A stretch of 63,467 bases of DNA from an uncultured Peptococcaceae bacterium (GTDB taxonomy: Bacteria > Bacillota > Peptococcia > Peptococcales > Peptococcaceae). The notes under the pieces are model-generated. The model did not search any database. It was not told where the DNA came from and saw only the letters and a program-made list of their open reading frames with translations. How positions within the stretch are numbered: the stretch's first letter is position 1; each line of letters starts with the position of its first letter. The stretch is from contig CATJSX010000077.1 of assembly GCA_949743265.1 (NCBI GenBank), positions 1-63,467 on the forward strand, read 5' to 3'. Below are positions 14,281-52,024 of this stretch, in pieces. The position numbers and the translations under genes were made by a program.

Positions 14281-14330
14281 GTAGACTGTATGATACTTTG
14301 CAAAAATTCAGCAGTTTAGGAAAGGTTGTG

Positions 14331-15155: not shown

Positions 15156-15164
15156 GGGCAAATC

Positions 15165-16616: not shown

Positions 16617-16618
16617 GA

Positions 16619-17479
16619 ATGGAATTATGGTTTACAGAAATTCATACGCCCAATGTGCGTTTTTCCATCAAAGTTGATCGTCAGCTGTATTCCTACACCA
16701 GCGAATTTCAGCGCATTGATATTTTTGAATCGCAGGAATTCGGACGGATTTTGACGCTGGACGGCTTGATGATGGTCGCGGAAAAAGATGAATTTATCTA
16801 CCACGATATGATCGTTCACGTACCAATGGCGACTAATCCTGAAATCAAACGCGTCCTGCTAATCGGTGCTGGCGATGGCGGTGCTGTACGAGAATTGACC
16901 CGCTACGACGGTATCGAACATATCGATATGGTTGAGATTGACAAAGAAGTGGTTAAAGCCTGTCGAGAATATCTGCCGTCACTATCCTATAAATTATCAG
17001 ATCCTCGCGTTCATCTTCACTTTGAAGACGGACTAAAATTTGTTCGCACTCGCGAGAATGAATATGATTTAATCATTGTTGATTCCACCGATCCATTCGG
17101 ACCGGGAGAAGGCTTATTCACTAAGGAATTTTACGGCAATTGCTATAAAGCGTTAAAAGCCGACGGTATTCTGGTTAATCAGCACGAATCGCCTTATTAT
17201 CCAGAAGATGCATTGGCAATGAATCGAGCACACCAACGCATCAAAGCATTTTTCCCTATTTGCAAGGTTTATCAGGCGCATATTCCTACCTATCCGTCGG
17301 GACATTGGCTTTTTGGTCTAGCCAGCAAGCAATACGATCCGCTCAAAGTGGATTTAAACCGTTGGGAACGGCTGGGATTGCATACGCGTTATTACAATAC
17401 TGACTTGCACAAGGGATGTTTTGCTCTGCCAACATACGCTTTAGAATTATTAGAACATGGTGAAGACGATGATGAATAA
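16619..17479 (+). CDS. speE: spermidine synthase (aminopropyltransferase)
   Basis: A 286-residue aminopropyltransferase. The AdoMet-type Rossmann loop LLIGAGDGGAVREL (80s), acidic VEIDKEV, and catalytic Asp region IVDSTDPFGP (D155, D158) are all present. It transfers aminopropyl from decarboxylated AdoMet to putrescine. Because it sits before agmatinase it could also use agmatine (the aminopropylagmatine route). Two nt separate it from speA (SD GTGGAGGG), so they are coupled. The glycine motif reads GAGDGG rather than the common GGGDGG. Confidence 0.93.
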   Translation: MELWFTEIHTPNVRFSIKVDRQLYSYTSEFQRIDIFESQEFGRILTLDGLMMVAEKDEFIYHDMIVHVPMATNPEIKRVLLIGAGDGGAVRELTRYDGIEHIDMVEIDKEVVKACREYLPSLSYKLSDPRVHLHFEDGLKFVRTRENEYDLIIVDSTDPFGPGEGLFTKEFYGNCYKALKADGILVNQHESPYYPEDALAMNRAHQRIKAFFPICKVYQAHIPTYPSGHWLFGLASKQYDPLKVDLNRWERLGLHTRYYNTDLHKGCFALPTYALELLEHGEDDDE

Positions 17480-18323
17480 AAATGTAGAAACATTTATTGG
17501 CGCCGACAGTACCTATGAAGACGCCAAAATGGTGATTTTCGGCGCGCCGTTTGATGCAACCACTTCTTTTCGTCCGGGGACTCGTTTTGGTAGTAAAGCC
17601 ATTCGCAGCGATTCTTTCGGCATTGAAACATACAGCCCTTACCAAGATTTGGATTTGCTGGATACTGCCGTTTTTGATGCCGGCGATTTAGAACTCGCCT
17701 TTGGTTCGCCGGAAAAAGCATTAGCGCAAATTGAAGAAATGACTACAGAAATTTTGCGCCATGGTAAAATGCCTATTATGTTAGGCGGCGAACATTTAGT
17801 ATCTTTGGCAATGGCACGCGCTTTAGTCAAACAGTATCCCGATTTGGCGATTGTCCATTTTGACGCTCACGCCGATTTACGGGACGATTATCTGGGCGAA
17901 AAATTATCCCATGCCTGCGTCATGCGCCGTATTTGGGAACTCGTGGGTGACGACAGAATCTTTCAATTTGGCATTCGTTCTGGTGATCGAACGGAATTTG
18001 TCTGGGGCAAGGATCATGTCCAGACGCAAAAATTTAATTTTGATCATCTGACGGAAACTGTACAAGCTTTAGGTAATCGACCTATTTATGTGACGCTGGA
18101 TTTGGATATTTTAGATCCGTCCATTTTTCCCGGTACTGGCACACCAGAAGCAGGAGGCGTCACTTTTAACGAAATTTTAGCGGCGTTAATGCATTTAAAG
18201 CCGCTGCATGTAGTCGCTTTCGATCTCAATGAATTATCGCCAGTCTATGATCAAAGCGGCGTTTCAACGGCTGTCGCCTGCAAACTATTACGGGAAATGA
18301 TACTATTATGGGCTTTTCACTAA
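17472..18323 (+). CDS. speB: agmatinase
   Basis: A ureohydrolase of about 283 residues. The binuclear Mn2+ ligands are GGEH (H108), DAHAD (D131, H133, D135) and DLDILDP. It converts agmatine to putrescine and urea, or aminopropylagmatine to spermidine. The start is set at the ATG 17472, eight nt behind GGTGA; the tandem ATG at 17469 is equally possible, while the earlier ATG at 17457 precedes the SD. It overlaps the speE end by 8 nt. Confidence 0.92.
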   Translation: MNKNVETFIGADSTYEDAKMVIFGAPFDATTSFRPGTRFGSKAIRSDSFGIETYSPYQDLDLLDTAVFDAGDLELAFGSPEKALAQIEEMTTEILRHGKMPIMLGGEHLVSLAMARALVKQYPDLAIVHFDAHADLRDDYLGEKLSHACVMRRIWELVGDDRIFQFGIRSGDRTEFVWGKDHVQTQKFNFDHLTETVQALGNRPIYVTLDLDILDPSIFPGTGTPEAGGVTFNEILAALMHLKPLHVVAFDLNELSPVYDQSGVSTAVACKLLREMILLWAFH

Positions 18324-18339
18324 CTAAGGAGGTTATTTT

Positions 18340-19539
18340 ATGGGAAAAATTATGATCATTGGCGCTGGCGGCGTCGCTGGCGTTGCTGCGCATAAATGTG
18401 CGCAAGTACCCGAAGTGTTTAGCGAAATTATGATCGCCAGCCGCACCAAAGCAAAATGCGATGCGATCAAAGCGCAAATTGACGGCGGTAAAAGTATTGT
18501 AACTACCGCGCAAGTCGATGCTGACAACACTAAAGAACTTATTGCGTTAATCAATCAATTTAAGCCAGATTTAGTTTTAAATTTGGCGCTGCCTTACCAA
18601 GATTTGACCATTATGGATGCTTGCCTAGCCTGCAAAGTCAACTATGTCGATACGGCTAACTATGAACCAAAGGACGAAGCAAAATTTGAATACAAATGGC
18701 AGTGGGCTTACCGAGAAAAATTTAAAGAAGCAGGTATCACCGCCCTTTTGGGCAGTGGTTTCGATCCTGGCGTTACTGGCGTTTTTTCTGCTTATGCTCA
18801 GAAACATTATTTTGACGAAATTCATTATATCGATATTTTGGACTGTAACGGCGGCGATCACGGTTATCCTTTCGCCACCAATTTTAATCCCGAAATCAAT
18901 ATTCGCGAAGTCAGCGCTAAAGGCAGCTATTGGGAAAATGGTCATTGGGTCGAAACTGAGCCCATGGAAATTAAACGCCAATATAATTTTGATCAAGTAG
19001 GCGTCAAGGATATGTACCTTTTGCATCATGAAGAATTAGAATCATTGGCGTTAAATATCAATGGTATTAAACGAATCCGTTTCTTCATGACGTTTGGGCA
19101 AAGTTATCTGACACACCTCAAATGTTTAGAAAATGTGGGTATGACATCTATTGAACCAATCATGTTTGAAGGTAGAGAAATCGTTCCGCTGCAATTTTTA
19201 AAAGCGGTTTTGCCCGATCCCGCATCATTAGGACCGCGAACCGTTGGAAAAACCAATATCGGCTGTATTTTCCAAGGCATCAAAGATGGTCAACCCCAAA
19301 CGTATTATGTTTATAACGTTTGCGACCATCAGGAATGTTACAAAGAAGTGCAGTCTCAAGCCATTTCTTATACCACTGGCGTACCGGCAATGATTGGCGC
19401 TATGATGTTAATGACCGGCAAGTGGCAAGGAGCAGGCGTTTTCAATATTGAAGAATTCGATCCCGATCCTTTTATGGAAGCGCTGAATCAATATGGATTG
19501 CCATGGCAAGAAAATTTTGCACCAGAGTTGGTTGACTAA
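18340..19539 (+). CDS. carboxynorspermidine/carboxyspermidine dehydrogenase
   Basis: A 399-residue member of the saccharopine-dehydrogenase-like family (KIMIIGAGGVAGVAAHKCAQ at the N-terminal nucleotide-binding site, LLGSGFDPGVTGVFSAYA, DCNGGDHGYPF). It reductively condenses aspartate semialdehyde with a diamine (putrescine gives carboxyspermidine) using NADPH. It has a strong AAGGAGG and its end overlaps the decarboxylase start by one base. Its presence beside speD/speE is unusual, since both routes end in spermidine. Saccharopine metabolism is less likely given the neighbours. Confidence 0.9.
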   Translation: MGKIMIIGAGGVAGVAAHKCAQVPEVFSEIMIASRTKAKCDAIKAQIDGGKSIVTTAQVDADNTKELIALINQFKPDLVLNLALPYQDLTIMDACLACKVNYVDTANYEPKDEAKFEYKWQWAYREKFKEAGITALLGSGFDPGVTGVFSAYAQKHYFDEIHYIDILDCNGGDHGYPFATNFNPEINIREVSAKGSYWENGHWVETEPMEIKRQYNFDQVGVKDMYLLHHEELESLALNINGIKRIRFFMTFGQSYLTHLKCLENVGMTSIEPIMFEGREIVPLQFLKAVLPDPASLGPRTVGKTNIGCIFQGIKDGQPQTYYVYNVCDHQECYKEVQSQAISYTTGVPAMIGAMMLMTGKWQGAGVFNIEEFDPDPFMEALNQYGLPWQENFAPELVD

Positions 19540-20672
19540 TGGTTAATTTCAATCCTCGTGAACTAAAAACGCCTTATTATGTTGTTGATGAAGATTTGCT
19601 GGAGCAAAACCTGCAAATCCTAGCTAAAGTAAAAGCGCGCAGCGGCTGTAAAATTCTTTTGGCGCAAAAAGCCTTTTCCATGTTCAGCCTGTATCCGCTG
19701 ATTGGACGCTATTTGGACGGCACAACCGCCAGTGGTCTATATGAAGCCAAACTAGGCTATGAAGAAATGGGCAAAGAAAATCACATCTTTTCACCAGCCT
19801 ATCTGCCAGATGAAATTGATGAGATTCTCGCTATTTGCGACCATTTAGTATTCAATTCATTTCATCAATGGTTGACGTTTAAAGATAAAGCGCTGGCTAG
19901 TGGTCGTTCTTGCGGACTGCGCATCAATCCAGAATGTTCAACGCAAGCGCACGCCATTTATGACCCTTGCTCACCAGCTTCAAGATTAGGCATTACTAGC
20001 GCCAATTTTAAACCAGAATTATTAGAAGGCATTGAAGGGCTTCATTTTCATACTTTATGCGAACAAAACGCCGACGCTCTAGTGACAACCTTGCACGCTG
20101 TAGAAGAAAAATTCGGCGCTTACCTCTCGCAAATGAAATGGCTTAATTTCGGCGGCGGTCATCATATTACCCGCACCGATTATGATATAGAAACTTTGAG
20201 CCAAGTTATTGAACGCATTCAAAACCAATATGATGTGCAGGTTTATCTGGAGCCGGGCGAAGCTATTGCTTTAAATACGGGATTTTTGGTTTCAATGGTG
20301 GTGGATATACTAGACAATGGACTGAAAATCGCCATTTTGGACACTTCCGCTGCTTGCCATATGCCAGACGTTTTGGAAATGCCTTATCGCCCTCCAGTCA
20401 TCAACAGCGGCTTAGCAGAGGAAAAACTTTACACTTATCGTTTTGGCGGACCAACATGTTTAGCTGGCGATATTATCGGCGATTATAGTTTTGATGAACC
20501 GCTAAATATCGGCGATAACGTCATCTTTGGCGATATGGCAATCTACTCTATGGTAAAAAATAACACCTTTAACGGCATGAAATTGCCCAGCATCGCGCGC
20601 TATAATAACCGCGAAGGGCTAAAGCTAGTCAAAAGTTTTGACTATGAAGATTTCAAAAAACGTTTGTCATAA
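19539..20672 (+). CDS. nspC: carboxynorspermidine/carboxyspermidine decarboxylase
   Basis: A 377-residue fold-III PLP decarboxylase. The PLP-binding region is LLAQKAFSMFSLYPLI, with GGGHHITR for the phosphate, an EPGEAIALN motif, and PTCLAGD near the C-terminal active site. It decarboxylates carboxyspermidine to spermidine (or carboxynorspermidine to norspermidine). The ATG shares its A with the stop of the preceding gene (TAATG), so translation is coupled. Last gene of the operon. Confidence 0.93.
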   Translation: MVNFNPRELKTPYYVVDEDLLEQNLQILAKVKARSGCKILLAQKAFSMFSLYPLIGRYLDGTTASGLYEAKLGYEEMGKENHIFSPAYLPDEIDEILAICDHLVFNSFHQWLTFKDKALASGRSCGLRINPECSTQAHAIYDPCSPASRLGITSANFKPELLEGIEGLHFHTLCEQNADALVTTLHAVEEKFGAYLSQMKWLNFGGGHHITRTDYDIETLSQVIERIQNQYDVQVYLEPGEAIALNTGFLVSMVVDILDNGLKIAILDTSAACHMPDVLEMPYRPPVINSGLAEEKLYTYRFGGPTCLAGDIIGDYSFDEPLNIGDNVIFGDMAIYSMVKNNTFNGMKLPSIARYNNREGLKLVKSFDYEDFKKRLS

Positions 20673-32113: not shown

Positions 32114-33124
32114 ATGGCTAGAATCGTCCATTTAGGCGCAAAAACAGACCGCCGAGCAACATATTTCAAACAAGCTACAGAAAAACTGGGGATGGAAACA
32201 GCGTTTTATACTTATGCAGAATATGAGAAAGATTCTCGACCAGACGATCTATTGAAACTGGATCCGCCGCCACAAGAAGACGCTTTGCTGTGCAAGCTAG
32301 CACCATTTGTACAATCTTATTGTCATCAGTTGCAAATTTTGAGCCGTTTGCCTTCTGTACATTTTCTAAATTCTCCTGCAGGAATTTGGGCGGCGCTAGA
32401 CAAAAAAACAGCCAAGCAGCGTCTGCTTGCCGCCCAAGTATCGACAACGCCCCTGCTTGATTATACAGCGTCTTCTTATGAAGAATTGTTGGATAAAATG
32501 ACGATGAATCATCATCAGCGCGTTTTTATCAAACCCCGCTATGGTTCCGGCGCGGCTGGTGTGGCAGCTTTTCAAATCAACCGCCAGAATCAACAAGTTT
32601 TGCAAACTTCTTTAGCCCTCACCAAACAAGGTCTAATCAACACCAAACGCGTGCGCCGCTTTAGTCAGCCGGAAAAAAACCGCCGTTTGTTGGACTTGTT
32701 GCTGCAAGAAGACTGTATTTTGGAAACATGGATTCCTAAAGATTCTGTCAACGGCATAACTTACGATTTAAGAATCGTTTATCAATTAGGTAAAATTGTT
32801 TTTGCTATACCCAGAGGAGCCGACTCACCCATCACTAATCTACACTTGAATGACCGCCCGCTGGATTGGGCACAGATTAGTCTGCCCCAAAGTCTTTGGC
32901 AAAAAATCGACGAGCTATCCCGCCAAACAATGACTTGTTTTCCTGAATTAGTTTACGCCGGCCTTGATGTCCTCATTCCAGCGGGCGATAGACAAAGAGT
33001 TACTCCGTTAATTATTGAAATTAACGGACAAGGTGATTTAATTTACAAAGATATTTTTGCTGATAACCGAATCTATAGCGAACAAGTGCGCTATTTATCT
33101 TCATTGGCAAAATACCCCACTTGA
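32114..33124 (+). CDS. ATP-grasp ligase-like protein (STM4014-like)
   Basis: A 336-residue ATP-grasp protein. The A-subdomain nucleotide loop is RVFIKPRYGSGAAGVAAF, the adenine-binding segment is CILETWIPKDSVNGITYDLR, and the metal-binding residues are in TPLIIEINGQGDL. ATP-grasp enzymes join a carboxylate to an amine or thiol through an acyl phosphate. The short form and N-terminal domain (IVHLGAKTDRRATYFKQATE) suggest the STM4014 group. SD AGGGAAG. It is coupled to the DUF6138-like gene. The substrate is unknown; a small-molecule or peptide ligation is inferred. Confidence 0.75.
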   Translation: MARIVHLGAKTDRRATYFKQATEKLGMETAFYTYAEYEKDSRPDDLLKLDPPPQEDALLCKLAPFVQSYCHQLQILSRLPSVHFLNSPAGIWAALDKKTAKQRLLAAQVSTTPLLDYTASSYEELLDKMTMNHHQRVFIKPRYGSGAAGVAAFQINRQNQQVLQTSLALTKQGLINTKRVRRFSQPEKNRRLLDLLLQEDCILETWIPKDSVNGITYDLRIVYQLGKIVFAIPRGADSPITNLHLNDRPLDWAQISLPQSLWQKIDELSRQTMTCFPELVYAGLDVLIPAGDRQRVTPLIIEINGQGDLIYKDIFADNRIYSEQVRYLSSLAKYPT

Positions 33125-35509: not shown

Positions 35510-36133
35510 TTAATACTCAAAATTGATATACTCTTCCAGCTGGCTCATTTCATGAATGGTGATGCCATCTGGCCGTTTTTCAATAATATGCGCTTTGGAT
35601 AACTGAGCTAACAAACGTGAAACGGAAACAGCATGAATGCCACAATACTTACTCAATTCGACATTGGTAAAAATAGCATCAACCAAGAAAGAACCGTCAG
35701 TCTGAGGAATAGCCAGTGATTTTAGAGCAATTCCTACTACTGAAATTCCACCGCCTAATGTACGGGCAATATGAAATGTTAACTGTTGCCAGTATTCCTC
35801 TGCCATTTCCTGCAAAAGTGCATACGCAAAATCATGATGCCCCTTGATATATGTTTCTATTTGAAGGCATGGAATTTTATAACAAATACAATCCGTCTTA
35901 GCCAAAAATTCTTCAACTACTTCCTGCTCTCTTTCTGAATAGATACCAATCATTTTCCCCGAATGAAAATAGTTAAGAACAATTTCCTCCCCGTTGGGGG
36001 CTAGAAACACACGAGCACAAATACCATTTAACAAATAGTAATTATATTGAAGCCGTTCCCCTATTTTAAAAATATGCTCTCCCGCTCGAAAGCAAATTTT
36101 AGGATATTGCTCCACCCATTTTTTCTCCCACAT
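35510..36133 (-). CDS. Crp/Fnr-family transcriptional regulator
   Basis: A 207-residue protein with a cyclic-nucleotide-binding-like beta-barrel (residues 15-110, NYYLLNGICARVFLAPNGEE), a long dimer helix, and a C-terminal winged HTH (VELSKYCGIHAVSVSRLLAQ). No Fnr-type N-terminal Cys set is present. The relatives are effector-sensing Crp-like proteins such as the CprK group, which bind organic anions. It is divergent from the permease at 36302 with a palindrome between them. Confidence 0.88.
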   Translation of the reverse strand: MWEKKWVEQYPKICFRAGEHIFKIGERLQYNYYLLNGICARVFLAPNGEEIVLNYFHSGKMIGIYSEREQEVVEEFLAKTDCICYKIPCLQIETYIKGHHDFAYALLQEMAEEYWQQLTFHIARTLGGGISVVGIALKSLAIPQTDGSFLVDAIFTNVELSKYCGIHAVSVSRLLAQLSKAHIIEKRPDGITIHEMSQLEEYINFEY

Positions 36134-36214: not shown

Positions 36215-36301
36215 GCAAAATAATTTCAATTTTATTATTATATTCATATAAAATCTTTGATCAAAGAAAAAAATTTCTTATTTTTATTTGAGGTGACTGA
36301 T

Positions 36302-37747
36302 ATGATAAAAGTAAAAAACATGATCTATTTGATCAACTCAATAATAGGCATCGCGCTAATGTTTGGCATCCCACTCATTCCACCAATTGAGCCGCTCACT
36401 AAAATCGGTATGCAGTTGGGTGGTATCTTTATCGGTTTGGTCTATTTGTGGTCAACGGTTGATCTACTTTGGCCTTGTTTGTTAGGTATCATTGCATTAG
36501 CTTTTACGGATTACGTTGATTTCTATGGCATATTGCCAGCTTTTGCAGATTATACCCCACTATTTATGCTTTTTAGTATGATGTTTGGCGGCGCAGTCGC
36601 TTCTTGCGGTCTAACAGCTTATATTGCTCATTGGTTTTTAAGTTTAAAGATTATCAATGGACGCCCTGATGTATTTAATTTTATTATTATGCTGGCTATG
36701 TACATCGTTTCAGGATTTTTTGATCCACTGATGGCTATGTTAATTTTATGGCCGACGTTATATTCAATTTTTAAGGAAGCTGGTTATAAACCGGGGGACG
36801 CCTATACCCGTATTTTAATTATTGCTACTTTTATCGCCATTACTTTAGGACAAGGCATCTTGCCATTTTTTGGCGCACAGTTAATTATTTTAAGCGCCTT
36901 TCAGGCAGCAAGCGGTATTACTGTTAATTATATGATCTATATCACATTACAAATGCTCATAAGCATCATTATATTGCTTGTCATCACGCTATTGATTAAG
37001 TTCATTCTACGCCCAGATATGAACAAAATGAAGAATATTTCTGCCGAAAAAATAAATACAAAACCATTACCGCCCATGAATATTACGCAAAAATCATTTG
37101 CTACTATTTTCGTTATCATGATCATCTTTGGCTTAATACCATCTATCTTACCTGCTGAAAGCATAATCGTATCATTTATCAATCATTTAAGCCTACTAGG
37201 CTTTTTACTATTGATTCTTGCTATTTTATCAGCATTGCAAATTAAAGGAACGCCAGTCATTGATCTTAGAGAAACAGCCAAAGAAAATGTTATGTGGGAT
37301 TTATATTTATTGGTAGTTTTGGCTATCTTTTTTTCTGGCAATTTATTGGCAGACGCCACTGGTATCAAACCATGGTTAATTCAGTTATTGATGCCCATAT
37401 TTGGAAATTTCGGTCCCGTTTTCTTCATTGTCTTTTTATTAATTATTGGCATTTTATTGACCAACATCGCCAATAATGCTATTGTAGGCGCTATCTTTGT
37501 CCAAATTTTAACTGCTATGGCGCCATCATTAGGCATCAAAAATCCTGCTCCTATGGTAATTATTTTAACAATGGTTATGTTTTTAGCTGTACTAACCCCG
37601 ACGGCTTCCCCTTACGCCGCTGTGCTACATGCCAATAAGGAATGGGTTTCTATGAATGATATTTTAAAATATGGCTCGCTCATGCTCATCGTCAACCTCA
37701 TTATTTTTGTCATTGTTGGTTTGCCTTTAGCCAATTTATTGTACTAA
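36302..37747 (+). CDS. SLC13/DASS-like anion permease, subfamily A
   Basis: A membrane protein of about 481 residues. It shares with the permease at 1385-2842 and the one at 39755-41215 the N-terminal PLTKIGMQLGGIFIG and a DLLWPCLLG segment, and has a C-terminal ANKEW motif. The start ATG at 36302 follows GAGGTGACT; the longer frame has no SD. It is followed after 42 nt by the broken arylsulfate sulfotransferase and is divergent from a Crp/Fnr regulator. Transport of an arylsulfate or the freed phenol is a reasonable inference but unproven. Confidence 0.8.
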   Translation: MIKVKNMIYLINSIIGIALMFGIPLIPPIEPLTKIGMQLGGIFIGLVYLWSTVDLLWPCLLGIIALAFTDYVDFYGILPAFADYTPLFMLFSMMFGGAVASCGLTAYIAHWFLSLKIINGRPDVFNFIIMLAMYIVSGFFDPLMAMLILWPTLYSIFKEAGYKPGDAYTRILIIATFIAITLGQGILPFFGAQLIILSAFQAASGITVNYMIYITLQMLISIIILLVITLLIKFILRPDMNKMKNISAEKINTKPLPPMNITQKSFATIFVIMIIFGLIPSILPAESIIVSFINHLSLLGFLLLILAILSALQIKGTPVIDLRETAKENVMWDLYLLVVLAIFFSGNLLADATGIKPWLIQLLMPIFGNFGPVFFIVFLLIIGILLTNIANNAIVGAIFVQILTAMAPSLGIKNPAPMVIILTMVMFLAVLTPTASPYAAVLHANKEWVSMNDILKYGSLMLIVNLIIFVIVGLPLANLLY

Positions 37748-37789: not shown

Positions 37790-39698
37790 ATGTCAATTCA
37801 ATATCAAAAAATTTCTCACATTATAGAGCAACAGTATGAAGCAGAACAGCAATTTTTGCAGGAATTTGCTCAAGGAAACTATACCGTAAAGAATCCACTC
37901 ATCAAGCAAAATCCCTAACTTATATTGTCCGCTAACGGCCATCGTGCTGTTTCGGGCACCAATCGCTACAGAAGTAACCATCACAGTTATGGGCAAAGAA
38001 CCAGCAGGCAATATCAGTCATACTTTTCCAGCAGCAAAAGAACATATTTTACCAATTTATGGTCTGTACGCCGACTATACCAATCAAGTCATTCTCAAGA
38101 CCGCCACGGGTCAGCAACAAATCATTACTTTGCAAACAGAACCGACAGCCACCAATGTGCATGCAGCTTCCAACATTCGCACCACTGCTGAATATATGGG
38201 GAATAATTTAATGTTTTTGACAACAGCTATGGATTCTATGCCCGTTGGTTATGATTATCGCGGCGATATTCGTTGGTATGCTACCGTCAATTTTAATTTT
38301 GACCTTAAGCGAATGCCAAATGGTCATTTATTAGTTGGTACTGAACGATTAGTAGAAATGCCATATTATACAACCGGATTGTACGAAATGATTTTTAGCG
38401 GAAAAATTTTTAAAGAATACCGTTCTTCCATTGGGGGATACCATCACGATCAATTTTTGATGGATGATGGCAATATTTTAATGCTGTCTTATGAAGCCGA
38501 TTCCAGCACGGTAGAAGATATCTGTATCTTGCTAGATAAAAATACGGGGGAAATTTTACGAAAATGGGATTATAAAGACGTTTTGCCGCAATATCCAACA
38601 GCCGGCTTAGGCAGTCAAGATGAAATCGATTGGTTTCATAACAACGCCATATGGTACGATAAGCGAACTAATACCTTGACAGTGTCCGGTCGTCATCAAG
38701 ATGCAGTTATCAATCTTGACTATGAACTAGATGAAAACGGCAAGTGCCGATTAAATTGAATTTTAGGCGATCCCGAAGGCTGGCCGCAAAATATGCAAAA
38801 ATATTTCTTTAAACCTATCGGTGAACTAAGCAACTTTGATTGGCAATACGAACAACATGCTGCCGTTGTTTTACCCGACGGCGATATTATGTTGTTTGAT
38901 AACGGGCATTTTCGCTCTAAAGATCCGAAAAAACGTATTCCTAACAGCCAAAATTTCTCGCGAGGCGTGCGCTATCGAATTGATACCCAAAAAATGGAAA
39001 TTAAGCAAATATGGCAATATGGAAAAGAACGAGGCGCTGAGTTTTTTTCTCCGTATATCTGCAATGTTGAATATCACGATGAAGGGCATTATATGGTACA
39101 CTCTGGCGGTATTGGTTATAAAGACGGGCAAACATGTGAAGGCATGGCAGTTATTGAATGTGTCAATCCAGACGGTCACCGCTATACATTTAATTCCATT
39201 ACGTGCGAACTTGTCGATGATGAATTATTATACGAATTGCAAGTACCTGCTAATTGCTATCGCGCCGAAAAATTGCCCCTTTATTCTGCTAATGAAGTCT
39301 GGGAATCCGGCAAAGGACAATTACTCGGTTCGTTAAAAGCCACGCCAACAACAACGTTAAAAATTAAAGCCGACGAAACAAGCGATGTTGTCGCCGACCA
39401 ATACAACATTAAAATTGTAGAATGCGATCGTATTTTATTGCAAGGAACTTTTGAAGAAGACACTCTAGCACAAATTTTATTCATTGCAGAAGACAACACT
39501 ATATTGCGTTACAAAATTGACACCACCCATAAAGATTTCCAAGCCATGTGTGTAGGAACTTTCCAAAAAGCAAACAACCGCGAAATTGATACCTTTATCA
39601 ACAAAACCGGCTTATGCGGAAAGTATCAAATCAAACTACTATTGCCCTATGGAGAATCTTACAAAATTTATCAGACCAATATAACAATCAGCGTCTAA
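37790..39698 (+). pseudogene. arylsulfate sulfotransferase, broken by a frameshift and a nonsense codon
   Basis: Good homology to arylsulfate sulfotransferase (Arylsulfotrans family) runs from ATG 37790 (SD AAAGGAG) to 39698, about 636 codons, near normal length. Two lesions are visible. The first frame stops at TAA 37916; deleting one C from CCC 37913-37915 restores N-P-N-L-Y-C-P-L-T-A-I-V. The second is TGA 38757-38759 where the family has Trp (KLNWI). Active-site segments GGYHHDQF, DWFHNNA, SGRHQDAV and EQHAAVVLPDG (the probable sulfated His) are intact, but the last lies beyond the TGA. There is no signal peptide, so it would be cytoplasmic. It is decayed, or one lesion may be a sequencing error. 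Confidence 0.88.
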
Positions 39699-39754: not shown

Positions 39755-41215
39755 TTAAAAAATCACTTGCACCAAAATTATTCCAACTGCCGCACAAATC
39801 AGAGTCAACACGATTAAGGCAACACCCATCAGTTGATACATATCTTTAGGTTTAATCCATGTCGTATTGGAGAACAGCATCACCGCAAAAGGAGATGCCG
39901 CTGGCGTCAATAGCGCCAGATGCACGCCAAAAATCAAGAGCACTGCGCCGGGCAAAGAACTGACCCCCATAGCTGCCGAAAAGCTGCATATGATAGGCAG
40001 AAACATTACACCCACAATAAAGTTTTGCAAAAAATTAGTCAAAACAATAGCTAAAATCACAATAGAAAGGGTAAAAACCATAGGGGATAAGCCGCCAAAT
40101 ACAGGCGTTAAAATTGTTACCAAAAATGGTTGTAAACCAGTATTTTCAGCGGTTAGCAAATTGGCAACAGGTAAAATAGCGATACAACAAATTAACATGT
40201 CCCACATGGTATGTTTTTTGGCAATATCAACAAATTTGAATAATGGCTCGCCATCTACTTTGACCCAAGTCATCACTGCCAAAAGCGCCATAGCTACGCC
40301 AGCAGCTCCTAATGCTTTTAGCTTAGCAGTCAACAGCCATTGCGTTGGTAAAAATCCCTGCATAAGAACCAGACCGATAAAAGCAATCAAGAAAAACATC
40401 ATCCATTTAATTTGTTTAGTAAGCTCCAAATCTTCCGCTTTAACAATATCTGGACCAATATTTTTTAATGGTGTCATATCCACTCTGAAAATAAAGCGAG
40501 CGATCAACACATATGCTAAAACCATTAACGTCCCCATCAGCAAAATAAAAATAATCCATTGAGCGTAGCCTACAGCAATACCCGAAATATTTTCATAAAG
40601 TTTTAACAAAATCATAGCAATCCCTTTAAAAGGAAAAACGCTCATCCCTACTGTCGAAGCTAACACAACGCCGCCGACCATAACGTTAGTATATTTTTCA
40701 AAAGGCTTAATGCCAAACATATTCAAAATATTATATAACATCCCCCAAAAGACCAAAATCATCACATAAGGATTAGCAAAAGAAGTCAGCAACATACAAC
40801 TTAACAAAAATACCGTTGTAAACAGCCATGGACGACCAGTCAAAATTTTTCTGCTTAAGATCCATGCGGCTAAAAATCGTCCAACCCCCGATTCATTAAC
40901 AGCAGAAATCAAAATAACGGAAAAAATCATTAACGCCGTTGTATCAGCGCCAAGACCGATAACCAAAAAGTTAGCCAATGTTGTAACATTATACAGCACG
41001 ACTATCACAATAGCCAGTAAATTAGGCCAAATCATGCCGCTGGTCAGCCAGCCGTAAACCATACCAATAAAAATCCCTATAATTCGCATACCTTCCGGTG
41101 TCAACGGTGCTACAGGCGGAATATAACCAAAACCGATCATTAAAGCTGCGCAAATAATAATATGAATATATAAGGAATCAAATTTTTTCTCAGATTTTTC
41201 TATCGATGCACTCAT
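39755..41215 (-). CDS. SLC13/DASS-like anion permease, subfamily A
   Basis: A 486-residue protein with PLTPEGMRIIGIFIG at the N-terminus and FSNTTW near the C-terminus. It is paralogous to the permeases at 1385-2842 and 36302-37747. The start ATG at 41215 follows AGGAGGGAG. It is divergent from a LysR gene at 41307, with a 91-bp shared control region, and is probably that regulator's target. It sits in the same locus as the second phosphodiesterase-like enzyme (42268-44304). Confidence 0.8.
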   Translation of the reverse strand: MSASIEKSEKKFDSLYIHIIICAALMIGFGYIPPVAPLTPEGMRIIGIFIGMVYGWLTSGMIWPNLLAIVIVVLYNVTTLANFLVIGLGADTTALMIFSVILISAVNESGVGRFLAAWILSRKILTGRPWLFTTVFLLSCMLLTSFANPYVMILVFWGMLYNILNMFGIKPFEKYTNVMVGGVVLASTVGMSVFPFKGIAMILLKLYENISGIAVGYAQWIIFILLMGTLMVLAYVLIARFIFRVDMTPLKNIGPDIVKAEDLELTKQIKWMMFFLIAFIGLVLMQGFLPTQWLLTAKLKALGAAGVAMALLAVMTWVKVDGEPLFKFVDIAKKHTMWDMLICCIAILPVANLLTAENTGLQPFLVTILTPVFGGLSPMVFTLSIVILAIVLTNFLQNFIVGVMFLPIICSFSAAMGVSSLPGAVLLIFGVHLALLTPAASPFAVMLFSNTTWIKPKDMYQLMGVALIVLTLICAAVGIILVQVIF

Positions 41216-41253
41216 TATTCTCCCTCCTATTATTGTTTTCCGTTTTATTTCAT

Positions 41254-41282
41254 TTGACATTTTGATATATCTAGTTTATCAT
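41254..41282 (+). promoter_or_regulatory. promoter of the LysR gene
   Basis: Perfect TTGACA (41254-41259), 17-nt spacer, TATCAT (41277-41282). A leftward promoter must overlap this short region. Confidence 0.65.
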
Positions 41283-41306
41283 ATCCTTAAAAAGGAGGTA
41301 ATCACC

Positions 41307-42224
41307 ATGCGTTCGGAGCAACTGGAGTATTTAATTGAGATCGCCAACAGCCAATCCATCACCAAAGCCAGCAAAACATTAACTATTACCCCACAAGCAT
41401 TGAGTCTTGCTATCAAAAATTTAGAGCAGGAGTTAGGCTTCGCTGTTCTCGAACGCACCAACAAAGGTATTACCGTTACTGATGGCGGCAAATCGCTGAT
41501 TCGTAGCGCTAAACGCTTCTTAGCAGATGTTTCTTTGCTGCAAAAAAAGTTGTCTTCTTCCCCTACTTCAGTTATTAACTGCTCTATTTTAGCAACACTA
41601 GGGGGATTATCAACGTTTTTCCCAGAGTTTTTGTGCCATTTATACCAAAAATATCCTCATTCGCAAATTACTATCAATTATCAACCTTATCAAACGGTTA
41701 TTGAACAAATCGAAAATGATGATTGTGAATTTGCCTTTTATGATAATGTTTTAATTGCTGAAAAGCCGCGGGATATGCTCAGCGAAACACTTCATTTTAC
41801 CGCTATTTTTTCTTATAAATTATTTTGTATTGTTCCGCAAAGGCTACCTATCGCTCGCCAAAGCAGTCTGTCAATTAAAACTTTGCTGAAATATCCCTTT
41901 ATTCTTTTAACTCATCAACATAATCTAAATCTATCGCCTTATGCACTTTTTTCCTACTTTGACCAAAAACCAGCAGAAATTATTCACGCTTCCGATTCGA
42001 TTATGTTTAACGAAATGGTTTCCAGTGGTCTGGGCGTTGCTTTAAAATTGATTCCGCCAAATATTCCAGTGGAAAAATATACTCTGCCTGACGCCAAACT
42101 GATCCCTTTAAATTATAAAGATTTCGCGGTTATCTTCGGCTACCTTACCAAAAAAACTGTTGATGAGTTGTCAGCCGACGCTAAAAAATTGCTCTCTGAA
42201 TTAAAAAAATACGCTACTTTTTAA
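41307..42224 (+). CDS. LysR-family transcriptional regulator
   Basis: A 305-residue protein with winged HTH MRSEQLEYLIEIANSQSITK, then PQALSLAIKNLEQELGFAV. The effector domain covers residues 90-300. The start ATG at 41307 follows AAAGGAGG; the longer frame adds 15 residues without a better SD. Divergent from the permease. Confidence 0.9.
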   Translation: MRSEQLEYLIEIANSQSITKASKTLTITPQALSLAIKNLEQELGFAVLERTNKGITVTDGGKSLIRSAKRFLADVSLLQKKLSSSPTSVINCSILATLGGLSTFFPEFLCHLYQKYPHSQITINYQPYQTVIEQIENDDCEFAFYDNVLIAEKPRDMLSETLHFTAIFSYKLFCIVPQRLPIARQSSLSIKTLLKYPFILLTHQHNLNLSPYALFSYFDQKPAEIIHASDSIMFNEMVSSGLGVALKLIPPNIPVEKYTLPDAKLIPLNYKDFAVIFGYLTKKTVDELSADAKKLLSELKKYATF

Positions 42225-42267: not shown

Positions 42268-44304
42268 TTAATATTCTGCGTCAAGAATCTGATACACTGG
42301 TGCGCCTTCACATTGTGCTGGCATTCTGACACCGCCCAAAACAGCGATTGTTGGAGCGACATCTACTTCGCGAATAATCCGATCCGTTTCAAACCCTTGC
42401 TTCAATCCTTTGCCAGCGGCAATGAAGATAGGAGAAACCGATGTGCCACCAAAACCATAAGTCGTTGACAGCGAATCAGCATGGTCATAATTATAGCCTT
42501 CTGCCAAGAAATAAATAATATCGCCTGATTCTGGTCCACCAGTACCCAAGATAACCGCATCTTTATTGCGCAAAGCTAACGCAATAACCCGTTTGCCAGT
42601 AGCTTTGTCACGATAGCCATAAAGTGCTGTCATAATTTCTTCTTCTAATTCATACTGATCCTCAGGCTCAACAATACCATTGGGATTTCTACCTTTAATG
42701 TTCAAATAAATATGGTTGCCTCGCGTTGCCAACGCTTTGGTGTGCTCCCAATCAATTTCTCGCAATTCTTCTCCATTAGGCCCCGTTTTTAATACTGTAT
42801 AGCCCAATTCCTGCATGACACGAATATTGACGCCAGTAATATCGCCTATTAGTGGCGGATCATTTTCAGGACAAACCTGTGCATGGTCAGACACAATCAA
42901 AATGGTCCAGCCGTCGTCTAGCATATCCACAAAATCGCCAATATAGTTATCCGTTTGAATATAGATTTTTTCCAAAAATTCCGCAAAATCAGCTTCAGTT
43001 AAATTGGGCGTCAAACCTTTATCTTTCATATATTTCACGATCATGTGTCCTTGCGCATCAACATTATGGTAATGAGAAAAGACTACATCATATTTTTCTT
43101 GTTCAATCAATAGTTTGAGACTCTTAGACTGCCATTGTCCGATATGATCCCAGTTAGCGATCATGCCATCGCAAATTAGCGTACGGTCTGCGCCGCCCAA
43201 AATCGTAGCTGGTGGCGGATATCCGATATTTTCTGTAACGGTTTTGAACAACGTTCTTGGATGCCACAGTAAATCATTGGTAATATCCATACCAGAAGAA
43301 ATCCACATTTTTACTCTGCTGCCGTCTGCTTTCAATTCAAAAATACGCATATTACGATTTACTAAATATCTCTCATCATTTTTAAAGGCATCATCCAAAT
43401 AACCTTCGATAAATTCGCCTTCTTTGAGCACAATTCTAGGCTCTGTATCTTTTTTAGATTTATAGATAGCAATCCGATCATACACTCCATTTTCATTAGC
43501 CAAAATTAGCGTTGGGCGATGAATCAAGCCATGAGAAAGCAAAATAGTAAATTCTTTGGCATCTTTGGGAGCTTCTGCCCAGCCAATAGCCGGTTTAATC
43601 GGCGATAATACCGCATCATAAGGCGTTGCCGTCATAGAGCCTTCGCCGTCCTCTTTGCAGAGCAAAATATTTCTGGTGGCTTTATTGCCCACACCACTGG
43701 CGGCTGCAGCCAAGTCGGTACCACTGCCATTTTCGTCTTCGGCAACCAAATCTTCAATCATACAAGGAACATTGCTGTCTGTTGCTGCTTTTTCCTGAAA
43801 ATGCAATTCTTTTATTTTTTCATCAGCCAACAAAATAAATTCCTTGTCGACTTTAGCCACACCAGAATTGACTGTTGAAGGTTGTGTTCCGTCTACAACA
43901 TGCAAATTGGCACTGTCAGAACTTGGTGGCCAAGAAGCGCCGGGCCAATGCCAAACCAATGTTTTTTTGCCATTTTCGGCGAAAACGTTCCATAATTGTT
44001 CAGCTTTACACAAACGAGAATCCAAATTATATTCCAATAAATCCAAGTTTTCTTCTGACTGTCTCCAGAAACAAGTAATTCCGTGCGTCACTGGATAAGC
44101 CCCTGTGGCTAACGTCGTCCACATGGGCGGCGTTACTGTTGGTACACCACCCAACATCACCAAATCATGCCGCTGTGCGCCTTGTTCAATTAAACGCTTC
44201 GTGTTAGGCATTTTACCTTCATCGACATAGCGTCTGGTCAAACGAGGATCCATTCCGTCAACGCCTAAAACTAAAATTTTTTCACTTAATGCTTTTCTTT
44301 CCAT
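42268..44304 (-). CDS. alkaline-phosphatase-superfamily phosphodiesterase-like enzyme (copy 2)
   Basis: A 678-residue paralogue of 6206-8263. Metal site: D16 (VLGVDGMDP), nucleophile T58 in TVTPPMWTTLATG, D-x3-H in NVDAQGHM, DH in VSDHAQV and the late His in YNYDHADS, all present. No signal peptide, so cytoplasmic. SD GAAAGGCAGG. It is convergent with the LysR gene and presumably belongs to the same locus as the permease at 39755-41215. The mid-region (residues 120-330) differs from copy 1, so the substrates may differ. Confidence 0.8.
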   Translation of the reverse strand: MERKALSEKILVLGVDGMDPRLTRRYVDEGKMPNTKRLIEQGAQRHDLVMLGGVPTVTPPMWTTLATGAYPVTHGITCFWRQSEENLDLLEYNLDSRLCKAEQLWNVFAENGKKTLVWHWPGASWPPSSDSANLHVVDGTQPSTVNSGVAKVDKEFILLADEKIKELHFQEKAATDSNVPCMIEDLVAEDENGSGTDLAAAASGVGNKATRNILLCKEDGEGSMTATPYDAVLSPIKPAIGWAEAPKDAKEFTILLSHGLIHRPTLILANENGVYDRIAIYKSKKDTEPRIVLKEGEFIEGYLDDAFKNDERYLVNRNMRIFELKADGSRVKMWISSGMDITNDLLWHPRTLFKTVTENIGYPPPATILGGADRTLICDGMIANWDHIGQWQSKSLKLLIEQEKYDVVFSHYHNVDAQGHMIVKYMKDKGLTPNLTEADFAEFLEKIYIQTDNYIGDFVDMLDDGWTILIVSDHAQVCPENDPPLIGDITGVNIRVMQELGYTVLKTGPNGEELREIDWEHTKALATRGNHIYLNIKGRNPNGIVEPEDQYELEEEIMTALYGYRDKATGKRVIALALRNKDAVILGTGGPESGDIIYFLAEGYNYDHADSLSTTYGFGGTSVSPIFIAAGKGLKQGFETDRIIREVDVAPTIAVLGGVRMPAQCEGAPVYQILDAEY

Positions 44305-46894: not shown

Positions 46895-46947
46895 TAAAAT
46901 CAAAGGCTTTCTTTGGCAAATTTAACCACAGAAAGCCTTTGATTTTA
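46895..46947. terminator. bidirectional terminator after nfnB
   Basis: TAAAATCAAAGGCTTTCT (46895-46912) pairs with 46930-46947. It overlaps the stop codon of the convergent amidohydrolase-like gene. Confidence 0.85.
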
Positions 46948-47757
46948 TATTTTCAGTAAATCTGCTGCATTTTTATAAAAAATGTTTTCTAATACCTCGG
47001 GACGAATGCCACACGTCTGATACCATTCCACCATCAGTTTAAGCGGTACTTGTGGATAGCTAGTAGCGAATAAAAAACGATAGCGCAAATGCCAATTAGC
47101 GGCTGTAACAAAATCCTGATACCCCGGTGTACGAAACAAGTATAAATCTGGACACAAATAAACATTTTCTCGTTTGTAAGCAACGCCGCACATTTCCTGA
47201 ACATAAGGCCAACAGCCATGCCCAATAATCATTTGCAAATTGGGAAACTGTTTCGCTATATTATCAACATGAATAGGATTGTTTTCTGCATAATTTATTC
47301 TGCTGTTTCCTCCTGAAAATATCATCAACAAAATTTTTTCCCTTTCACATTTTTCATACAAAGACCATAGCTGTTCATCATCAACCAAATAACTGGCAAA
47401 AGACGGAATCATCGAAATCCCACTGCAACTACCATTTAATACATAGCGCTCTATTACCAAAAGAGATTCTTCTAAAGTATCATTTAAATCAAGAGCGGCA
47501 AAAGCATAGTATTTGCCGAGATATTTTTCCACTAACTCTACCATATCTGGATTTTGCGCCTTAGTTCCTTGCATAACGGCAATATCTATACCAGCTTCTT
47601 GTTTTTCCTGCTCGTACAGCGCCATCGACCGTTGTTCGACCGCTATCGTATGCGCCACATCAAATTTCACGCCATATTTTTCTACCGCTTCTTGCTGAAA
47701 TAAAAAACTTTCCTTAAAGCGTCCATATGGCGGTCTATTCCTAAAATCAATGATCAT
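46945..47757 (-). CDS. amidohydrolase-2-fold protein lacking canonical metal ligands (copy B)
   Basis: A 270-residue paralogue of copies A and C. IIDFRNRPP replaces the HxH motif. The strand-5 position is Phe/Ser (LLMIFSGG), the C-terminal Asp position is S233 (FATSYP), and the only classical ligand left is H180 (GHGCWPY). Last gene of the permease-amidohydrolase-reductase-amidohydrolase operon, 23 nt after the flavin reductase. SD AAAGGCGG. Confidence 0.75.
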   Translation of the reverse strand: MIIDFRNRPPYGRFKESFLFQQEAVEKYGVKFDVAHTIAVEQRSMALYEQEKQEAGIDIAVMQGTKAQNPDMVELVEKYLGKYYAFAALDLNDTLEESLLVIERYVLNGSCSGISMIPSFASYLVDDEQLWSLYEKCEREKILLMIFSGGNSRINYAENNPIHVDNIAKQFPNLQMIIGHGCWPYVQEMCGVAYKRENVYLCPDLYLFRTPGYQDFVTAANWHLRYRFLFATSYPQVPLKLMVEWYQTCGIRPEVLENIFYKNAADLLKI

Positions 47758-47780
47758 GTTTACACCGCCTTTTACAATCT

Positions 47781-49697
47781 TTACAACATTAACCCTAACT
47801 CAAAACTTTCTCTAATATCCAAAAATCCATTTTTCACTGCTTTAGCATCACCAATGACTTCTATTTCACCAGAAAAATCTTTTAATTCCGCCTCTAAAGG
47901 ATTGTAAGATTTTACGCCAACAGCTAAAATTATCGTATCAATTCCTGTGATTTCTTTTGTTTCATCAGCTTCTTCGATGATAACGCCGTTTTCTCTCACC
48001 TCTAATACTCGCGTTTCTAAATGAATTTCCACTTGATTTTTCTTCAGTTCCTGCATTAACTGAATTTTAGGTAATAATGCGCCGTCTTTAGCAATATCCT
48101 TTGTCATTTCTATTAAAATTACTTTGTGACCATGAGCGGCAAAAAACACCGCCGTCTCTGCACCAGTCAATCCTCCACCTATAACCAAGATGGATTGTCC
48201 TACCGAAACCTTCCCTAATAACGCTTCATTGGCCAAAACAACTTTTTCATGATCCGTCACAAATGCAGAAGGAATAATAGGCTTGCTACCTGTAGCCAAT
48301 ACGACAACGTCTGGCGCTTTTTCGCAAATTAAATCGGCTGTTACAGCCGTATTAAGAATTATTGTCACCCCATATTTTTGCAACTGCTTTTTCTGCCACG
48401 CCGTAAAACTAGCGAAGTCCGTCTTTCCTACAGGAACTACAGCAGCCAACCACTGTCCACCTAACTTATTGGATTGTTCATACAACGTTACATGATGTCC
48501 ACGCTGCGCTGCTATTAAAGCAACTTCACAACCACTGATACCGCCACCCACAACCATAACTTGCTTTTTCATTTCTGCCAACGCTATTTGACAACTATCT
48601 TCTCGACCTACGCTCGGATTGACCATACAAGTCATAGCAGCCGACACACCATTAAACATACAACCTTGTAGACAGCCAATACAATGATTAATATCGTCAT
48701 GTTCGCCATGCATAGTTTTCTTCGGTAATTCGGGATCGGCAATGGAAGCACGCCCCATATTGACCAAATCGGCTTTACCAGAACAAAGGATTTCCTCCGC
48801 AATCAAAGGATCATCAATGCGGCCCACTCCAATAACTGGAATCGTTAACACTTTTTTCATTTCTGCCGCATTATCAATATACAATGCTTTATTAGCAATA
48901 GAAGAAGGAATAACAATATTGACCACATCGCTCCCTTGCGAACAATGCATGACATCAACGCCCGCCTCTTCCAGCAGCATGGCAATGGCTTTTGTTTCTT
49001 CAATGCCCAAGCCACCCGTTAGCGGTTCTATTGAGGATATACGATAAAAAATCGGAAAATCCTCGCCCACTTGTCCTCTGACTTCCTTTACCACTTCAAC
49101 AGAAAAGCGAGCGCGATTTCTTGTGTTACCGCCGTATTCGTCGCTTCTTTTATTAGAAAATGGCGATACAAAATTATGCAGTAAATAGCCATGACCACCA
49201 TGAATTTCCACCCCATCAAATCCAGCCGCCTTAGCTCTATACGCAGCTTCGCCAAATTGTCTGATGATTTCTTTTATTTCTTCTATCGTCAATTCGTGCG
49301 GTATTACAGCGTTCAGTGGGCTTTTAATGGCTGACGGTGCGACCGGCGGAACATGATTAACTGACATACTGCAAGATTGCCGACCGGCATGATAAATTTG
49401 CGCAACGATTTTGCTACCTGCTGCGTGAATTTTAGTGGTAAACATTTCATTTTCAGCAATAAATTTATCATCATATAATCCCGGTAAATTAGGATAGGCG
49501 CCCGCCATAGGATTGATAATATAGTCTTCTGTAATAATCAATCCAAATCCCCCTTTTGCTTTAGCAAGATGATAGCTTTCAAATGTTCCTGTTATTGTAT
49601 GATCCAAGTTATTCATGCGAGTAACCATTGCTGAAACAATTAGTCTATTCTTCAATGTCATTTTTTTAATCGTAATTGGCTCAAAAATTTTTTCCAT
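47781..49697 (-). CDS. FAD/FMN, Fe-S old-yellow-enzyme-type reductase
   Basis: A 638-residue protein of the 2,4-dienoyl-CoA reductase / 2-enoate reductase / BaiCD group. The N-terminal FMN TIM barrel (residues 1-330) has AQIYHAGRQS and GVEIHGGHGYLLHNFVSPFS. The [4Fe-4S] Cys cluster is CIGCLQGCMFNG with a further CMVNP. FAD/NAD(P) domains follow (VMVVGGGISGCEVALIA, ILVIGGGLTGAETAVFFA). It reduces an activated C=C or a similar bond in an unsaturated or aromatic acid. The start ATG at 49697 follows GAGGGGG; the longer frame runs across a terminator. It lies between two amidohydrolase-like genes. Confidence 0.88.
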   Translation of the reverse strand: MEKIFEPITIKKMTLKNRLIVSAMVTRMNNLDHTITGTFESYHLAKAKGGFGLIITEDYIINPMAGAYPNLPGLYDDKFIAENEMFTTKIHAAGSKIVAQIYHAGRQSCSMSVNHVPPVAPSAIKSPLNAVIPHELTIEEIKEIIRQFGEAAYRAKAAGFDGVEIHGGHGYLLHNFVSPFSNKRSDEYGGNTRNRARFSVEVVKEVRGQVGEDFPIFYRISSIEPLTGGLGIEETKAIAMLLEEAGVDVMHCSQGSDVVNIVIPSSIANKALYIDNAAEMKKVLTIPVIGVGRIDDPLIAEEILCSGKADLVNMGRASIADPELPKKTMHGEHDDINHCIGCLQGCMFNGVSAAMTCMVNPSVGREDSCQIALAEMKKQVMVVGGGISGCEVALIAAQRGHHVTLYEQSNKLGGQWLAAVVPVGKTDFASFTAWQKKQLQKYGVTIILNTAVTADLICEKAPDVVVLATGSKPIIPSAFVTDHEKVVLANEALLGKVSVGQSILVIGGGLTGAETAVFFAAHGHKVILIEMTKDIAKDGALLPKIQLMQELKKNQVEIHLETRVLEVRENGVIIEEADETKEITGIDTIILAVGVKSYNPLEAELKDFSGEIEVIGDAKAVKNGFLDIRESFELGLML

Positions 49698-49725
49698 TAG
49701 ACAAACCCCCTCAAAATAATTAAAG

Positions 49726-49754
49726 AAAAAGGCGTAGCCAATAATGGTCACGCC
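49726..49754 (-). terminator. intra-operon terminator-like hairpin
   Basis: GGCGT (49731-49735) pairs with ACGCC (49750-49754), with an inner CCA/TGG. On the minus strand a run of five T follows. It sits in the 80-nt gap between copy C and the flavin reductase, so downstream genes may be attenuated. Confidence 0.6.
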
Positions 49755-49777
49755 TATGTCATCTTCCTCTTGTGCCA

Positions 49778-50629
49778 TTAAAGATCTTCTTCTGTCATTC
49801 CCAAAAATTCCAATGCGTTCTGATACATTACTTTCGGTAGCGCAGTTTCAGACAATCCCCAGTTTGTATAATAATCCACCATATCTGTTATATGCATAAT
49901 GGGAAAAGTAGATCCAAAAATGATTCTATCTTTAATAAAACCATTAGCAGCCGCCATATAATCATTACCGCCGGGACAGTCCAAAACGTAAATATCTGGT
50001 GAAATCCAAAGATTTTTGTGACGTGCAGCTAACCAACAATATTCATTAACATAGGGGTATCCGCCGTGGCACAGCGCTATTCGCATTTTGGGGTACCGTT
50101 TCAAAACGTTTTCAATATGCACAGGCGCTCCGTGCTCAATTTCCATAGAAGCCATACCGCCCCAAGTCAACATAACGGGCAAACTCAAGTTATGACACTT
50201 TTCATAAATAGGCGTGATAATTTCATCATCTGCATTTAAAATCATTTGTCCGTTTGGACCGCATACGGTTAATTCCATCATGATTCCTTTACAAGGTCCG
50301 TTTACCACAAATTTTTCAATTTCCGATAAACAAAATTCTGGTCCAGCTAAAGGATCAATACCGATCATTGGAATAAATTTATCAGGATACATGGTGTATA
50401 GCTCAACCAATTCTTCATTAGTGACATGACTGGATACACGCCCCGGCACAACGCCTTTATTGACGCCAGCGGCCTCCATTTCGGCAAGACATTCGTCAAT
50501 AGAGCGAATTCCTGCTGCTGTTTTTTGATTGAATTTTCCAGCAAAACTAGTTAAATAGGGCTCGTTATATAACCAGCTTGTCCTAAATCCTCCATGGTAC
50601 GGTCTAACACGAAAATCAATAATTTTCAT
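49778..50629 (-). CDS. amidohydrolase-2-fold protein lacking canonical metal ligands (copy C)
   Basis: A 283-residue protein with MKIIDFRVRP at strand 1 (no HxH), T155 at the strand-5 His position (LPVMLTWGG), H188 in CHGGYPY kept, and T241 in place of the Asp (IFGSTFP). Second gene of the operon, 24 nt after the permease. SD AGGAGG. Same questions as copy A. Confidence 0.75.
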   Translation of the reverse strand: MKIIDFRVRPYHGGFRTSWLYNEPYLTSFAGKFNQKTAAGIRSIDECLAEMEAAGVNKGVVPGRVSSHVTNEELVELYTMYPDKFIPMIGIDPLAGPEFCLSEIEKFVVNGPCKGIMMELTVCGPNGQMILNADDEIITPIYEKCHNLSLPVMLTWGGMASMEIEHGAPVHIENVLKRYPKMRIALCHGGYPYVNEYCWLAARHKNLWISPDIYVLDCPGGNDYMAAANGFIKDRIIFGSTFPIMHITDMVDYYTNWGLSETALPKVMYQNALEFLGMTEEDL

Positions 50630-50653
50630 TATAATTACCTCCTCATCTTATTT

Positions 50654-52024
50654 TTATAACACTTGCACTAAATACCAATAAGGTATTAAAAACACCATTA
50701 CAAAAATGAAATTTACTGCCATTTTTACTGCCATGCCTTTAGCAAAATCAGCCAATTTCATTGCGCCAAACGAAAAGAATATCAAATAATAAACGTTTTC
50801 ATAAGGAAGTATAATCTGATCACAAGCATGATAAATCACCATATACAACGCTTCTGGATTTAAACCAATAGATAACGCTATTTCGGTTAAAGGTACTGTC
50901 AAAGCTCCCCAAATAGCTAACGGCGTTAAAAGGAAGTTTAAAACCATACAAAGCAGCCAAACGAATCCACAAACGAACAGCATACTTTTGTCAGATACAA
51001 TGGGTAGCGCCATTGTAGCAATGATTTGTCCGATACCTAATGCGCCTGCTACGCTTCCTATAGCTGTACAAGCGACCACAAATAATAAAATGCCAAAATT
51101 TACTTTTTGAAAATCTTCTTTCGTACCAATATTTATTCCGGGCCAATAACACATACAAGGAATAAAAGTAAATAACCACCCCATGCTAATGCCATGATAT
51201 TTTATCGTCAAAATGGCTATTACCAAAAATATCCCTACGCCTAAACACTTTCTTTCGCTCAATTTCATTGCGCCAAGTTCAGCATATTTGTCTTGAAAAT
51301 ACTCTTTTCCGTCAATAGTATGATTGGGCTTAAACATTTTGGAGTAAATGAACACCATCAATATTAAAAAAACTACAGAAACAATATTTTGTTGCAAAAA
51401 TGCTAAGTAACTGGGAATAGCCTTTCCTGTAACAGTCATTCCCGCTGTATAAATAACCGCTACTGAAGGACTATACATAAACATTAACGGCAATAAAGCG
51501 CCTGCTGCCGCTGAAAGCATAATTCCAGTAGAAGCTTTCGACACGCCCAAATTCAACGAACGACAAATCCCATAAGCCAAAACTGCCATTGGTAAACATG
51601 CTTGACTTGGAATGAAAATATTCAATACAAGCCCTGTCAAAGCCAAGCCAATCATAATTCCTCCATACGTTCCGCCAGTTAAAATTAAACATTTATAGGC
51701 AATTCTTTGAAGTAGTCCTGTCGATTCCATAATATTAGCAAAAAGCAACGCACCAAAAATCATCCACGGCGTAGAGGTTAACCAAGGCGACAATGCTATG
51801 TTGGCTGAAGCCAATCCTGTCATAATGTAAATCACAGGCAACATTAGCGATACAGCCGTTTGATTGATATTTTCACAAGCAAACATAATAACCGCCAAAA
51901 TAGTTATTACGCAAAACAAACGAATCTCCCTTGTAAATACTTCATTGGTTGGAATTAAGAAAATACAAAGCGGTACTCCTAACGTTATTACCCATACTAA
52001 CAAATCTTTTTTATTGATATTCAA
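50654..52024 (-). CDS. SLC13/DASS-like anion permease, subfamily B
   Basis: A 456-residue membrane protein, paralogous to 8346-9734. The start is taken as the TTG at 52024 behind AGGGGGG, because no ATG with an SD lies nearby. First gene of a four-gene operon with two amidohydrolase-like proteins and the Fe-S flavin reductase, divergent from a LysR gene. It presumably imports the unsaturated or aromatic acid used by the downstream enzymes. Confidence 0.8.
   Translation of the reverse strand: MNINKKDLLVWVITLGVPLCIFLIPTNEVFTREIRLFCVITILAVIMFACENINQTAVSLMLPVIYIMTGLASANIALSPWLTSTPWMIFGALLFANIMESTGLLQRIAYKCLILTGGTYGGIMIGLALTGLVLNIFIPSQACLPMAVLAYGICRSLNLGVSKASTGIMLSAAAGALLPLMFMYSPSVAVIYTAGMTVTGKAIPSYLAFLQQNIVSVVFLILMVFIYSKMFKPNHTIDGKEYFQDKYAELGAMKLSERKCLGVGIFLVIAILTIKYHGISMGWLFTFIPCMCYWPGINIGTKEDFQKVNFGILLFVVACTAIGSVAGALGIGQIIATMALPIVSDKSMLFVCGFVWLLCMVLNFLLTPLAIWGALTVPLTEIALSIGLNPEALYMVIYHACDQIILPYENVYYLIFFSFGAMKLADFAKGMAVKMAVNFIFVMVFLIPYWYLVQVL

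Follow-up and report, generated by a model that had tools for sequence, protein, structure and literature searches.

The window analysed here, a stretch of 63,467 nucleotides from the draft genome of an uncultured Peptococcaceae bacterium with relatives among gut anaerobes, holds at positions 37790-39698 of the forward strand (+) an arylsulfate sulfotransferase (ASST) gene that is interrupted at two places. The question raised by this locus is whether the gene has been inactivated in the organism, is intact there and misrepresented in the assembly, or yields an active product in spite of both interruptions. The frame that opens at ATG 37790 reads from MSIQYQK to KNPLIKQNP, 42 residues in all, and is closed by TAA 37916-37918; this 5' part (37790..37918, +) aligns with the N-termini of the homologs up to the residues NP. 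A second frame then runs from 37917 to the final TAA at 39696-39698, its sole interruption being the TGA at 38757-38759 (+). By reading, alignment and Pfam, the middle part of the gene (37917..38756, +) has most of PF17425 and the first part of PF05935, and by reading, Pfam and a structure match the 3' part (38760..39698, +) has the second part of PF05935. Upstream of the TGA, PF17425 scores 46.7 bits and PF05935 150.8 bits, and downstream of it PF05935 scores 147.2 bits; read through the TGA, the whole gene matches PF05935 at 325.8 bits (cut-off, 24.2 bits). The identity proposed in the first-pass annotation therefore holds, with PF05935 and PF17425 matched on either side of the TGA, and so does its description of a frame that is whole apart from two point lesions: within 37917-39695 the continuing frame has one stop and the other two have 24 and 47, so that it is far from chance. 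The uninterrupted frame that a functional ASST gene needs is thus absent at this locus, where a frame change and a TGA both stand in the way. No Rfam family matches anywhere in the window at gathering scores.

The two lesions were placed against 35 homologous rows drawn from relatives and named genomes, two overlapping collections that reduce to 26 distinct proteins as judged by the last 300 residues. The column of TGA 38757 is Trp in all 35 rows, as had been claimed. At the frame-change place (CCC TAA C, 37913..37919, +) the window copy has TAA in the column that follows the Pro column, where Tyr stands in all 34 rows covering it; the remaining row, the partial sequence L092, does not reach this column and is left outside the identity counts, and the 34 rows without it represent 25 distinct proteins. 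The partial loci L017 and L026 were kept outside the alignment, and two remote rows that also lie outside it (L024 and L025) carry Tyr and Trp at the same columns. An extra C in CCC 37913-37915 had been proposed. The frame change at that position stands; the base need not be a C, because Tyr occupies the column in 34 of 34 rows, which suggests that an extra base in the triplet after CCC fits at least as well. The extra C is one of several placements, and the exact base is left undecided.

E. coli AssT (PDB 3elq) is a periplasmic enzyme; the window reading differs from it in showing, by eye, no obvious signal peptide at its beginning. The region around the catalytic His436 of AssT does align with the window copy (E 1.8e-16), placing the equivalent codon at 38856..38858 (+), downstream of the TGA, so a product ending at 38756 would be without the catalytic residue. 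According to the review PMC13426309, His436 becomes sulfated transiently and shows high conservation among the known enzymes of both clusters; it also names His252, His356, Asn358, Arg374 and Thr501 as active-site residues of the E. coli enzyme. The piece upstream of the TGA gave no match of its own among solved structures. The window copy has the segments HHD, DWFHNN and SGRHQD, which are common to its close homologs. The ASST fold needs both halves of the enzyme. A ribosome that begins at the natural start is stopped by the frame change after 42 residues, and a product of the second frame, with GTG 37944 as one possible start, ends at the TGA before reaching the catalytic histidine.

We consider, with a probability of roughly 0.72, that the window copy is a real and recently inactivated pseudogene, a paralog within the PAPS-independent arylsulfate sulfotransferases that lies next to an intact anion permease, in an anaerobe that is probably related to Peptococcaceae MAGs, to judge by its named relatives. 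Most likely this is an ordinary pseudogene; the enzyme family is a known one, and intact homologs are present both elsewhere in this genome and among relatives. That permease, of the DASS/CitMHS type, is an open frame at 36257..37747 (+) matching PF03600 and PF00939 over nearly the full length of these profiles, which bears out the earlier statement that it is intact; its translation more likely begins at ATG 36302 than at the listed TTG.

Five PF05935 matches occur in the genome: the window copy, one on contig C96, two on C79 and one on C146. The C96 paralog (L001/L110) is an open frame of 627 aa with no internal stops, 63.9% identical to the window copy over 621 columns. It differs from the window locus in having no DASS gene, by eye, among ORFs of at least 150 aa in the first 9 kb, with its upstream side out of view because the gene sits at the contig start. 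The two C79 genes are remote members of the family and likewise have no internal stops. The first-pass annotation had concluded that the enzyme was probably lost from the locus only just now; this would be right for the window copy, which is broken, but the C96 paralog and the two C79 members persist in the genome. Because the 627-aa paralog and other ASST-family genes are kept, the loss would be tolerated, and clusters that pair such a gene with a transporter may often be gained and lost. The arylsulfate sulfotransferases of Desulfosporosinus and Desulfitobacterium belong to the same family (PF05935), and the window copy differs from them in being broken at two places. PMC13426309 lists DsAST of Desulfosporosinus sp. 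HMP52 with its substrates; the homolog fetched from that strain (L094), which may not be the characterised DsAST itself, is 66.1% identical to the window copy over 620 columns.

The remaining ASST-family member, on C146, is of a remote branch (58.7 bits, profile 99-337) and resembles the window copy in having in-frame stops (one TAG and one TAA) in an otherwise long reading; it differs in that adjoining genes also change frame. On this contig (L109, 1-6324) these are a phosphodiesterase and a DASS-type permease, and a Crp-like regulator there is matched over part of its length only. Since the phosphodiesterase and the DASS-type gene change frame as well, C146 may represent a cluster in decay or else a stretch of poor assembly. 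Elsewhere in the same genome, two families were used for comparison: internal stops occur in none of 78 LysR matches and in one of 72 ABC-domain matches, the exception being an ABC-transporter ATPase with one TAA in frame (C30:5128-5568). Among 56 PF05935 match rows from 20 further genomes of the order there is none, a count that includes fragments and is blind to frame changes. Two of five ASST genes with stops, set against 0/56 and against the LysR and ABC matches, give one-sided Fisher p values of 0.005 and 0.0025. The significance is inflated, since the breaks were the very reason for selecting the window copy; once this copy is set aside, one of four remains and the values (0.067 and 0.051) are not significant. 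The excess of internal stops among the ASST genes of this genome is only a hint.

The age of the loss was approached through the nearest homolog fetched, L023, which is the same protein as L086 of the MAG uncultured Clostridia bacterium BRZ_EN__bin1 and is 75.7% identical to the window copy over 634 columns. The window copy carries 13 private changes in columns that 17 close homologs otherwise keep invariant, against 0 to 14 in the homologs themselves; in a wider set of 25 it has three, the others 0 to 4. In Tajima-type counts the window copy has more private changes than L023 with all nine outgroups, and chi-square exceeds 3.84 with three of them; with six of nine under the threshold, these counts suggest at best a weak excess of rate. 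With a pS of 0.79 between the window copy and the nearest homolog, synonymous sites are saturated, so dN/dS cannot date the loss. The good preservation of the remaining reading agrees with the very recent decay proposed earlier: if the lesions are real, the decay is probably recent. Among the papers searched, none that mentions arylsulfate sulfotransferase and pseudogenes concerns this group, as judged by titles and opening lines of abstracts.

A consensus or assembly error in the draft, with the gene intact in the organism, is unlikely and is the only serious rival to inactivation. The draft is in 208 contigs, and the good preservation of the reading on either side of both lesions is what an intact gene with two errors would also look like; C146, a short contig (6.3 kb) that has more than one additional break, points the same way. 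Against this, two errors would have to fall within one gene, and internal stops are rare in the two other families counted in this genome, LysR and ABC-domain. The longest run at either lesion is three bases, while the longer G5, A6 and T7 runs of the same gene stay in frame. For the same reason, and with no tandem repeat found at 37913-37919 or at 38757, the suggestion of a phase-variable or error-prone site did not hold up.

A very improbable alternative is recoding, in which UGA would be read as Trp or selenocysteine and a +1 frameshift at CCC-TAA would give a full-length enzyme. Family residues do continue in frame after both places, and a CCC codon followed by a stop, as here, is similar to +1 slippage sites that are known. 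Two unrelated events would be required, however, and a +1 slip at CCC would insert Asn in the column where all 34 rows carry Tyr. The translation apparatus speaks against the other half of the scheme. The best SelB match in the genome scores 110.8 bits against a cut-off of 242.25, passed in two of 14 control genomes, and the best tRNA-Sec match scores 44.1 bits against a cut-off of 47, passed in five of 14; ARAGORN assigns the latter place to tRNA-Ser(tga). With an assembly completeness of 98.41%, the absence of SelB and tRNA-Sec is likely, not certain. None of the papers searched mentions arylsulfotransferase together with selenocysteine. With both factors below their cut-offs, a selenoprotein reading of the ASST TGA was rejected.

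The check for a UGA-decoding tRNA-Trp, which had been advised for this locus, gave tRNA-Trp(cca) as the only tRNA-Trp seen by ARAGORN in the 52 tRNA matches covered; in the first look at tRNA candidates 150 of 189 were scored, and a weak tRNA match at the end of contig C86 corresponds to no ARAGORN tRNA. TGA terminates 10 of the 47 picked ORFs of the window. No internal TGA occurs in the other 154 domain matches of the genome (ASST, LysR and ABC), and Trp stands in all 35 homologous rows at the affected column. A code with UGA as Trp was rejected, as no tRNA-Trp with a UCA anticodon was seen among the tRNA matches covered and TGA is used as a stop. As far as tested, UGA acts as a stop in this genome, and the TGA in the window is not to be taken as a sign of an altered genetic code. 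It is hardly credible that two recoding events would sustain full-length enzyme at a low level, leaving a copy that is translationally throttled and not dead.

Equally hard to credit are two part-proteins, one of 271 aa starting at GTG 37944 and the other of 301 aa starting at ATG 38793, that would be made separately and assemble. Both ORFs are open and bear the two parts of PF05935, but the pair would be missing the conserved N-terminal stretch and the conserved Trp, and the 56 rows from the 20 further genomes, in a count blind to frame changes, offer no case with an internal stop. A phase-variable switch at the frame-change site, where a change of one base in length at 37913-37919 would shift the frame, has next to no probability and in its short-repeat form was rejected, since there are only three C's, the simple repeat of a switching site is lacking at both lesions, and the separate TGA would leave the gene off in either phase.

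With inactivation as the preferred reading, the permease next to the broken ASST gene should not be counted as part of a sulfotransferase locus that functions in this strain. If other isolates confirm the loss, the locus would be a small example of turnover of ASST and anion-transporter gene sets in these anaerobes; beyond annotation, the broken gene has little significance.

The surroundings of the gene comprise a Crp-like regulator (35510..36133, -) and a LysR-type regulator (41262..42224, +), both by profile match, and a second DASS-type permease (39755..41260, -) recognised from a near-full-length alignment with scores below the curated cut-offs. Beyond these lies an open frame for a protein of the phosphodiesterase/nucleotide pyrophosphatase family (42268..44304, -; PF01663), a relative of the split copy on C146. 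Comparable neighbours occur near ASST genes elsewhere, with DASS-type permeases for example at L093-L098 and LysR regulators at L096-L098; as these are 20-35% identical to the window's own (24-35% for the permeases of L094-L098 against the two of the window), the linkage of ASST, DASS and LysR holds at the family level. At L086, the locus of the nearest homolog, no match to the DASS or LysR genes of the window is listed; by eye its ORFs include transporter-like and LysR-regulator-like ones. Such gene linkage would be consistent with sulfated organic anions being taken up and processed.

Some other features of the window were recorded. Three permeases of the DASS/Na-sulfate-symporter type lie within the 63 kb, at 36257-37747, 39755-41260 and 50654-52024. 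The last belongs to a possible catabolic cluster (46945-52024) in which two Amidohydro_2 proteins flank an Oxidored_FMN-type flavoprotein. A compact polyamine set at 14298-20672 includes AdoMet decarboxylase, an Orn/Lys/Arg decarboxylase, spermidine synthase, an arginase-family protein, a saccharopine dehydrogenase-like protein and a PLP-dependent decarboxylase; from the gene order, a carboxynorspermidine route might be guessed. At 32114-33124 there is an STM4014-family protein (NF038074, 282.6 bits).
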